Of a DNA stretch of 64,000 nt, positions 9,684-12,383 are shown one piece after another (position 1 is the stretch's first letter; each line of letters starts with the position of its first letter). The translations under genes and the position numbers were made by a program. Origin of the DNA: Methanosarcina horonobensis HB-1 = JCM 15518 (GTDB lineage: Archaea > Halobacteriota > Methanosarcinia > Methanosarcinales > Methanosarcinaceae); assembly GCF_000970285.1 (NCBI RefSeq), contig NZ_CP009516.1, positions 4,691,036 to 4,755,035 of the forward strand. Reading direction: 5' to 3'. The notes under the pieces were generated by a model. The model was not told the origin of the DNA. It saw only the letters and a program-made list of their open reading frames with translations, and did not search any database.

Positions 9684-10064
9684 TCAATGGTTATTTCTCC
9701 ATTGATTATAATTTGTTTCCCATTTCCTGTGATTACTTTCCCATTTGTTGTGCTTGCTGAACCAACTATTATATTTATTTAGCCAGATATTGTAGTTATT
9801 TAACCAGATATCATAATCGTTTCCTTTTTTGTTCTTATCCCACTTCTTTTTCTCTTCCTCCCACTTCTTCCTTTCCTTATCCCAGGTATTCTTCTCATTG
9901 TCCCATGTCTTTTTCTCTGAATCCCATTTTTCCTTTTCCTGGTTCCATTTACCGGCATCATTTGACTCTGCACTTACTGACGCAGCTGTCACTGACATTA
10001 CAAAAAAGATCAGTGTAAACATACACATGATCTTTTTTGTTTTGTCAAATGTTTGTTTCCCCAT
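9684..10064 (-). CDS. Secreted tryptophan-heptad repeat protein, copy 1 (6+6 heptads)
   Basis: 126 residues. The signal peptide (KKIMCMFTLIFFVMSVTAASVSA) is followed by twelve tryptophans. Six lie in an acidic/basic half with units such as WDSEKKT and WEEEKKK. An 11-residue linker with a glycine follows (DKNKKGNDYDI). Six more lie in a second half with units such as WLNNYNI and WETNYNQ. Within each half, Trp occurs exactly every seventh residue. This predicts two long amphipathic helices, each with a Trp stripe, packed as a hairpin. No known family is recognised. Shine-Dalgarno GGGAG precedes the ATG. Paralogues are at 11506 and 12042. Confidence 0.75.
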   Translation of the reverse strand: MGKQTFDKTKKIMCMFTLIFFVMSVTAASVSAESNDAGKWNQEKEKWDSEKKTWDNEKNTWDKERKKWEEEKKKWDKNKKGNDYDIWLNNYNIWLNKYNSWFSKHNKWESNHRKWETNYNQWRNNH

Positions 10065-10930
10065 ACCTTATACTCCCAATTTTTGTTCAGTTTAACACAA
10101 TTTTATACACTTTAAAAGGTTTTCGTTTTGCATCTTTTACATCTATCCACACAGAACCCATGACATGAAGTTCATCAGAAAGTACAAACAAATCTTGTCA
10201 TAAATACTAAGATTCAGATTGTTGTGGTTTCATGCTACTGTTCGTGCTGCTTTTTTTAGATCCCGAACATGAGTCCTGCTTTGTTCAAATGTCTTGCCGA
10301 CTATCCGGCGACGTTGACATTCCTGAAATTATCCGGCTTAAATATAAGAATACTTATAGAAATAGAGGTTTTTAGTTGAATAGATTTATAAAATAAGCTT
10401 CATAATTAATTTAATTCGGATATGGTTCTAAATAACGGGATTAACCCTTATAGGGCCCCTTAAATGCCCCATATTTGGACAGGAAAAATGACAAAGGATT
10501 CAAAAAAGCAAATTTTGAGGTTCAGAATAAGAATTTAAATTCAGTATCAATTGCACATATGAAACAAAAAATCACGCACAACCAAGGTTATAACCTGGAA
10601 TCTTAATTCAACAGGTGATTATTAATTCTGCTGGATTTTTATCCCCCATATATGAGACAGATTAAACAGAAAAGCCCAAAATAATACCAATGAAGCTTTT
10701 TGGGGAAATTTATCCCGGAAATGCTAGTGTTAAAGAGAATTAAATAGCTTGATCAGAAAAAGAATGTTCCTTAAAGAATAGATATTAAATTTAATCCAGA
10801 AATAGACCTGAAAAAGAAAGCATATACTTATATTCAGATTCAGATACGGCATCTCTGTCAGAAACAAACAGAATTTCCGACCAGAATAAAGCCGAAGCTT
10901 CCAATACTTTGAAATGGATGCTTTGAAAAG
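10065..10930. repeat. Non-coding flank duplicated at 12384-13290 (copy A of region X)
   Basis: About 0.85 kb upstream of copy 1 aligns, with many substitutions, to the region upstream of copy 3. Matching landmarks: TGCCGACT...ACATTCCTGAAATT at 10296-10330 and 12658-12690; TTTATAAAATAAGCTT at about 10385 and 12747; GACCTGAAAAAGAAAGCATA at about 10806 and 13164; CAGATTCAGATAC at about 10842 and 13194. Short frames in it are not convincing genes. Confidence 0.7.
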
Positions 10931-11108
10931 AAATGAACAAAAGAGTTTCTCCGATAGCAAAAATGACGCAGACGGCCTACATGTCAAGCAGCGAAATAAA
11001 AGGCGTTAAGTTTCAAATTCCTTGTCCTTGCCATCCATGCGGCAGGCCTGATACACGGCTTTATGAATACAGGAAATTCGTGGCTGTGCCCATTTCATGG
11101 CTTGCTGA

Positions 11109-11288
11109 GGTAGTTATTGCCCGGAAATTTCACCTGATAGTCATCGCTACTACTCTCAACTGCCCGTGACTATGATGACCTCCTCTGGGGAATATTTCAT
11201 CGACTTCTCCCTTCTGAACCCCAATTTCAGACCTGATGAAGATGTGGTTTTCTGGATATTTGACAAACAGCAGGGATGGAGATTTTGA
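11109..11288 (+). pseudogene. Orphan coding fragment, 3' end of an unidentified gene
   Basis: A plus-strand frame reads GSYCPEISPDSHRYY, then through YFIDFSLLNPNFRPDEDV and VFWIFDKQQGWRF to a TGA at 11288. The composition looks protein-like. There is no good start: an in-frame stop sits directly before it, and a protein-like reading upstream (10933-11169) is in another frame. Interpreted as a decayed, frameshifted gene end. Family not recognised. Confidence 0.35.
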
Positions 11289-11377
11289 AGCCCGGTAAAT
11301 AATCCTTAAAAAATAGAGAAGGACCGATTGTTAAAAACCAGATTGAGAAATTGAATAAATTCAATTAGGGATCGATA

Positions 11378-11475
11378 TTATCCATCCGTAAGTTCTACAA
11401 CAACTTTTTGTTCAGAAGGGGCAGAACTCTCCCTCTCTGTCAAGAATTTTCAGGGCAATCCCAGAGCCTTTTTGA
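11378..11475 (-). pseudogene. Truncated, frameshifted 3' end of a pilin gene
   Basis: Minus-strand reading gives KGSGIALKILDREGE and, after a frameshift near 11415, SEQKVVVELTDG followed by a stop. The intact pilin at 13353 ends KAGTEITLKIIDSKG...AEQKAVVKLAD, so the fragment is clearly related. It lies just where a duplicated pilin would be expected next to region X. The 5' part is missing. Confidence 0.6.
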
Positions 11476-11505
11476 TTACAATCAGTTCTTCATCGTACTT
11501 TACAG

Positions 11506-11811
11506 TCAGTTCTCACGGCTATTTTTCCATTTGTTATAATTGGTTTCCCAGACCTTATATTTGCTCAACCACTTATTGTAGTTATATAGCCATTCATTAT
11601 AACCATTGTCAAGGTTCGTATTTTTGCTCCAGTTTTTTTTCTCTTCTTCCCAATTTTTCTTCTCTTCAGCCCACTTAGTTTTCTCTTCATCCCATTTCTT
11701 CGTATTATTTGGCTCTGCATTTACTGGCGCAATTGTTACTGATATTACAAGACAGACTAGAGTGAAAACACACAGAATTCTTTTCGCTCTGCCAAACATT
11801 TGTTTTCCCAT
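11506..11811 (-). CDS. Secreted tryptophan-heptad repeat protein, copy 2 (4+4 heptads)
   Basis: 101 residues, same plan as the proteins at 9684 and 12042. The signal peptide is RILCVFTLVCLVISVTIAPVNA. Four Trp heptads of the charged type follow (WDEEKTK, WAEEKKN, WEEEKKN), then a 12-residue linker containing glycine (SKNTNLDNGYNE), then four Trp heptads of the polar/aromatic type (WLYNYNK, WLSKYKV, WETNYNK). Shortest of the three, with both halves reduced equally. Shine-Dalgarno AGGAG lies upstream of the ATG. Lies between the pilin fragment and copy 3. Function unknown; exported. Confidence 0.72.
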   Translation of the reverse strand: MGKQMFGRAKRILCVFTLVCLVISVTIAPVNAEPNNTKKWDEEKTKWAEEKKNWEEEKKNWSKNTNLDNGYNEWLYNYNKWLSKYKVWETNYNKWKNSREN

Positions 11812-12041
11812 GAATCTTTAATACTCCTGTCTTTGTTCAATTAAATATAATTTGATACAATTTGCAAAGTACATGAAAATAGAGTAGGAGTTACATTCTT
11901 GAACTGAGAAACCAATAGCATGAAACTCAAACAGTTTTGTGACAGATCTGATCTTGCTTTATTTTGTCCCTCAAGAGTAACTCCTATCAGGAAATCAATT
12001 TATTTTACAGCCAGTTATTCAGTTTTTTTGATAGTCAAGTC

Positions 12042-12383
12042 TTACTGGCTATTTTTCCATTCATTGTAATTTGTCTCCCACTTCTTGTGGTTGGCTTCCC
12101 AAATCTTATGTTTGCTTAGCCACTTGTTATAATCGCATAACCAACTCTTATAATCACTGCCAGTTTTATCTTTCTTTTCCCACTTCTTCTTTTCTTCTTC
12201 CCATTTCTTCTTCTCTTTTTCCCACTTAGTTTTTTCTTTGTCCCAGTTTGCCTTTTCTTCATTCCATTTTTTAGCATCATTCGACTGCGCACTTGCTGAC
12301 GCAGCTGTCAATGACATCACGAAAAAGACCAGAGTAAACATACACAGGATCTTTTTCATTCTGTCAAATATTTGTTTTTCCAT
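12042..12383 (-). CDS. Secreted tryptophan-heptad repeat protein, copy 3 (5+5 heptads)
   Basis: 113 residues. The signal peptide is KKILCMFTLVFFVMSLTAASASA. Five charged Trp heptads follow (WNEEKAN, WDKEKTK, WEKEKKK, WEEEKKK, then a fifth Trp), then a 12-residue linker with glycine (EKKDKTGSDYKS), then five polar heptads (WLCDYNK, WLSKHKI, WEANHKK, WETNYNE, final W). One Cys lies in the first unit of the second half. Leader AGGAGTATAAAG before the ATG is shared with the other two copies. Upstream lie region X and an intact pilin gene. Confidence 0.75.
   Translation of the reverse strand: MEKQIFDRMKKILCMFTLVFFVMSLTAASASAQSNDAKKWNEEKANWDKEKTKWEKEKKKWEEEKKKWEKKDKTGSDYKSWLCDYNKWLSKHKIWEANHKKWETNYNEWKNSQ

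Follow-up and report, generated by a model that had tools for sequence, protein, structure and literature searches.

The window (the whole 64,000 nt stretch of Methanosarcina horonobensis DNA analysed here) carries three genes on the minus strand, P0001, P0002 and P0003, which together with their upstream sequences are listed in Table 1. The original prediction had described each as a signal peptide followed by an arm of W-x6 repeats, a short linker and a second W-x6 arm, with 6/6, 4/4 and 5/5 Trp before and after the linker. All three ORFs were confirmed, and the counts are borne out by the Trp positions: 40, 47, 54, 61, 68, 75 and 87, 94, 101, 108, 115, 122 in P0001; 40, 47, 54, 61 and 74, 81, 88, 95 in P0002; and 40, 47, 54, 61, 68 and 81, 88, 95, 102, 109 in P0003. 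The arms are separated by 11 residues in P0001 and by 12 in the other two proteins. The numbers of W-x6-W pairs (10, 6 and 8, respectively) were never reached when each mature chain was shuffled 20,000 times, the maxima being 6, 5 and 5, and the heptad spacing of Trp is far beyond chance. Read directly from the sequence, the signal peptides have AxA-type ends (ASVSA/ES, APVNA/EP and ASASA/QS).

Table 1. Features of the Trp-heptad genes and their upstream regions (window coordinates).
Feature	Coordinates	Strand	Evidence or remarks
P0001, Trp-heptad hairpin protein (predicted), 126 aa, 6/6 Trp	9684..10064	minus	ORF and AlphaFold2 model
P0001 signal peptide, aa 1-32, end ASVSA	9969..10064	minus	sequence, conserved in alignment
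P0001 arm one, W40-W75, charged heptads	9840..9947	minus	
P0001 linker, DKNKKGNDYDI	9807..9839	minus	helix break at 78-83 in model
P0001 arm two, W87-W122, Tyr/His at +4 of each Trp	9699..9806	minus	
P0002, Trp-heptad hairpin protein (predicted), 101 aa, 4/4 Trp	11506..11811	minus	arm one 11629-11694, arm two 11527-11592
P0003, Trp-heptad hairpin protein (predicted), 113 aa, 5/5 Trp	12042..12383	minus	arm one 12180-12266, arm two 12057-12143
41-bp promoter-like element upstream of P0001	10315..10355	minus	AAGTATTCTTATATTTAAGCCGGATAATTTCAGGAATGTCA
41-bp element upstream of P0003	12675..12715	minus	two mismatches
Non-coding block upstream of P0001	10066..10880	minus	conserved between species
Duplicate upstream block before P0003	12384..13232	minus	~69% identical

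P0001 and P0003 are constrained, working genes, since synonymous changes exceed amino-acid changes relative to their nearest homologues. The whole-gene dN/dS was 0.20 for P0001 (against its homologue in G001) and 0.13 for P0003 (against G009), and 0.11-0.13 for the mature parts of the two proteins. A fresh tandem duplication was considered as the source of the equal halves and rejected for the window genes; same-index heptads of different homologues are mostly more alike than the heptads within one protein. Near-identical adjacent repeat units are present in the G001 homologue. Rfam returned three weak matches over the locus (miRNA or alphaproteobacterial sRNA models), which lie over coding DNA, are far below the cut-offs and were also discarded.

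A profile search of 112 genomes found relatives in 30 of the 31 Methanosarcina and in none of the 81 other Methanosarcinaceae. Among the weakest matches in these 30 genomes are some that rest mainly on the common signal peptide, and the true count of hairpin carriers is therefore somewhat below 30. In a phylum-wide sample, matches in other genera were only borderline and lay mostly within the signal peptide. Pfam, NCBIfam and PHROGs contained no fitting model, their weak sub-cut-off matches, which fell on the signal peptide and the charged arm, being taken as chance. A sequence search of the PDB gave no match, the viral contigs searched held no relative, and the literature search found no paper describing the proteins. 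As judged from these searches, the family is undescribed, as had been supposed at the outset, and confined to the genus Methanosarcina.

Members of the family were found in three genomic settings. At locus A1, the setting of the window genes, the order is a pilin-domain gene, the hairpin gene or genes, a methyltransferase gene and a peptide ABC transporter, and this locus is wholly or partly present in nine other genomes. The hairpin gene occurs there in three copies in the window genome and as a single, Trp-type copy in G001, and is Leu-type or mixed in G002, G003, G005, G014, G020, G026, G028 and G030. At locus A2, it adjoins genes for a lipoprotein-like protein, an ArsR-like HTH protein and a secreted 'NITEENFT' protein, and at locus B a DUF7343 winged-helix gene, whose product looks membrane-anchored, and a gene for a small secreted GY-repeat protein. 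The Leu-heptad orthologues (e.g., L060, L065) share with the window proteins their locus, signal peptide, a similar linker and the arm-two Tyr, but have Leu/Ile as the arm-one core and Trp/Phe/Cys/Leu as the arm-two core. Two further proteins were seen among the sequences examined. In one hairpin homologue (L062, G011:C15:13999-14571), the signal peptide and the Trp heptads are separated by a long Gly-Asn repeat (GAGNVGAGN...). A 216 aa secreted protein (L007, G000:C1:1148415) begins with a similar signal peptide and continues in dense Trp/Asp/Asn/Cys repeats.

A chain of heptads is readily folded back on itself by structure predictors, and the AlphaFold2 models are of single chains; the alignment behind the P0001 model was shallow, with 16 homologues, all of one genus. 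For P0001 (mean pLDDT 81, pTM 0.61), the model places a helix at 3-25 in the signal region, a low-pLDDT stretch at 28-33, and two helices at 35-77 and 84-125 whose pLDDT is mostly above 90. The two long helices are joined by a short turn and packed antiparallel, giving in the prediction the secreted two-helix antiparallel hairpin that had been proposed from the sequence. In the model of a homologue with nine arm-one Trp, the helices span 39-98 and 105-146, and pLDDT drops at both ends and in the start of arm one, which has no opposing arm. Foldseek against the PDB gave no significant fold match (best E 2.5), only generic helical hairpins, and nothing can be concluded from the lack of better ones. 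The P0001 model superposes on solved antiparallel hairpins, the best geometric fit being the p85 inter-SH2 coiled coil, with Z of 7.8-8.6 and 2.1-2.7 Å over 94-96 residues, a Z level that unrelated helical pairs also reach; p85 is intracellular and has no sequence relation to the family. On the strength of the models, we regard an antiparallel hairpin as the very probable fold of the family.

The heptad pattern of the Trp-type members points to how the two helices would pack. In arm one, position d is W in 94%, g is E in 93% and a is K in 68%; in arm two, d is W in 99% and a is Y in 64% or H in 32%. Position d is thus hydrophobic in both arms, while a is Tyr/His in arm two and Lys/Gln in arm one. 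The Lys/Gln at arm-one a would give a stable two-helix coil a polar seam, and is a point against a hairpin coil. With Trp at d, Tyr/His at arm-two a and Lys at arm-one a, canonical antiparallel packing would have Trp facing Tyr/His and Lys, and so favours Trp(d) lying beside Tyr/His(a') over Trp lying on Trp. By the predicted helix ends, the n-th Trp of arm one and that of arm two lie at almost the same height (residue sums of 162 vs 161 for the loop midpoint). At the orthologous locus in other species, identified by its pilin-domain and methyltransferase neighbours, the arm-one Trp positions carry Leu, Ile, Met or Phe, which is consistent with a core position and speaks against a function for which Trp itself is required. 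The Trp residues therefore look like core residues in an antiparallel coiled coil and not like a special Trp-Trp ladder.

The original prediction had taken the equality of the halves as a design rule, with length selected as a unit. The three nearest homologues have 6/6, 5/5 and 5/5 Trp, but the counts among homologues also include 6/5 (in five species), 7/6, 6/4, 5/2, 6/2 and 9/2, and 8 of the 14 Trp-type members of the closest subfamily (A) are unequal or uneven. The proposed check, a correlation of the two counts across homologues, divided the family. In subfamily A, the lengths of the two arms go together (r = 0.85, n = 22). Phylogenetic contrasts, which are rough since the repeat-rich alignment also supplied their tree, gave r = 0.12 when every member was included and 0.94 once a single tandem pair from G002 was left out. 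In this pair, one copy has an extra arm-one heptad with arm two unchanged and the other carries a C-terminal tail. Subfamily B, the large sister group, ranges widely, and its arm lengths are uncorrelated or negatively related, which is the independent variation that had been named in advance as evidence against matched halves. Equality is thus a feature of the nearest clade and not a rule, and the co-variation in subfamily A, hinging as it does on the G002 pair, makes a hairpin-length constraint on the arms plausible but loose.

Our preferred explanation, which taken as a whole we consider rather likely, is that P0001, P0002 and P0003 are paralogues within a family, specific to Methanosarcina, of small exported proteins that form antiparallel two-helix coiled coils, with an aromatic seam, loosely matched arms and a structural role at the envelope or cell surface. 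The family itself, its export signal and heptad pattern, the Leu/Trp exchange, the hairpin prediction and the common upstream element are results of the computations; self-association, the surface role and the regulation are the parts that we infer. Once the signal peptide is cleaved, the charged arm one (Trp at d, Lys at a, Glu at g) would turn back through the short glycine turn onto arm two, in which Trp occupies d and Tyr/His occupies a, and the two would form a rod with a seam of aromatic side chains. The arms would change in length by whole heptads and would tend to match, loosely, because a longer helix needs a packing partner. Exposed stretches of the aromatic seam and, in unequal members, the unpaired arm segments probably associate rods with each other or with envelope components. 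The outcome would be a structural protein of the surface or matrix, made within a small co-regulated secreted set.

Self-association could instead be the primary arrangement, with arms of different chains bundled in an intermolecular coiled coil and the linker serving as a joint and not as a turn. The single core residue of each arm-one heptad leaves room for other partners, and a designed Trp-rich coiled coil, the Trp-zipper of Liu et al. (2004), is a pentamer, as cited in PMC3483151. Like the hairpin family, this design is an alpha-helical coiled coil with Trp in the heptad core, but there Trp occupies both a and d, whereas the Methanosarcina proteins are natural, have Trp at d only and are predicted to pair within the chain. 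The conserved linker of 11-12 residues, the confident intrachain prediction and the rough match of arm lengths in subfamily A make the intermolecular arrangement unlikely.

It is also rather improbable that the aromatic and basic side chains are there to bind polysaccharide, either an acidic methanochondroitin capsule or S-layer glycans, with the helices as a scaffold. Exposed aromatics commonly stack on sugars, and the mature chains are net positive in most family members. Methanosarcina is able to make a negatively charged capsule (PMC12369344), a possible ligand for such chains. However, the Trp residues occupy one regular core phase and are exchanged for Leu at the orthologous locus, which would not be expected of sugar stacking. 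Least probable of the three is a hairpin in which every arm-one Trp packs on an arm-two Trp, the pairing itself being functional and length selected as a unit: the equal counts in the window and its nearest homologues, the subfamily A correlations (0.85, and 0.94 without the one pair) and the level Trp positions speak for it, but the unequal members of subfamily A, the wide range in subfamily B, the contrast correlation of 0.12 and the Leu, Ile, Met and Phe substitutions in arm one speak against it.

Among known proteins, the Fusobacterium adhesin FadA (PDB 3ETX, 3ETZ) offers the nearest analogy to the preferred reading of an exported rod. It is a small exported protein of similar size whose mature chain is an antiparallel hairpin with a short loop, and the family, by prediction and by its signal peptide sequences, likewise consists of exported helical hairpins of ~110 residues. 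In FadA filaments, the hairpins are linked head to tail via leucine side chains (PMC13432900). FadA is, however, bacterial, has no sequence relation to the family and depends on a leucine chain whose leucines the Trp-type members do not have. It was among the top Foldseek rows, but at E 3-5 and an rmsd above 6 Å, which is not significant, and its profile was not among the Pfam matches up to E 1, a range in which the HMMER filters drop most weak matches. By analogy, we tentatively suggest that the family forms exported structural rods of the envelope, possibly self-assembling like FadA though unrelated to it. A more specific version, in which end-to-end stacking of the hairpins builds extracellular filaments and the Trp/Tyr seam along them, with one aromatic every ~5 Å, serves cohesion or the movement of charge along the surface, is highly improbable.

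Upstream of P0001 and P0003 lie ~0.8 kb blocks that were duplicated along with the gene and that evolve more slowly than synonymous sites: the distance between the P0001 block and that of G001 is 0.31, vs a dS of 0.68 for the whole gene. In a consensus RNA structure of the leader, only 4 of 60 pairs were changed on both sides and the covariation term was unfavourable, giving no evidence for a structured leader. Each block contains a 41-bp element with a consensus of roughly AAGTAnnnTTATATTTAAnCCnGnnAATTTnAGnAnTGTCA. P0002 has no element of its own and may be transcribed by read-through from P0003. The element is found ~110-370 bp before the start codon in most of the A1 and B genes tested, while the A2 versions are weaker or differently placed. 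There are ~5-7 sites in the window genome (seven at ≤3 mismatches, against none for the reversed pattern), including G000:C1:2133631, 3065188, 4577848 and 2136880, and in 81 family genomes the reversed pattern gave no match at ≤2 mismatches. Its TATA-like centre suggests that the element is a promoter in which an operator or the start region is conserved.

Besides hairpin proteins, the genes downstream of the element encode the NITEENFT family, GY proteins and further small proteins that are secreted; at a few distant sites, the gene that follows is unrelated. Genes for HTH_20 (ArsR-like) and DUF7343 proteins adjoin some of the sites. From this arrangement, the hairpin, GY and NITEENFT genes look like a small, undescribed regulon of secreted proteins. 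The NITEENFT proteins (L202:6796-7767, i.e., G000:C1:3065295-3066266, and L201, L203 and L214) are secreted, ~260-320 aa long and probably helical, had no match above cut-off in Pfam or NCBIfam, and are found under the 41-bp element outside Methanosarcina as well, including in another genus of Methanosarcinaceae. The GY-repeat protein (L014:6479-6817 and homologues) is ~110 aa long, adjoins locus B in most Methanosarcina and gave only a sub-threshold match, to Yae1_N.

To our knowledge, Trp-cored coiled coils are otherwise mainly known from design work. The family would represent a natural, genus-wide example, and the Leu-to-Trp core swaps at one orthologous locus form a series for studying how well a coiled coil tolerates an aromatic core. 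If the filament version were true, it would place a continuous aromatic path on a methanogen that performs extracellular electron transfer. The shared promoter-like element links the family to a few other secreted proteins, and may provide a handle on surface remodelling in Methanosarcina.
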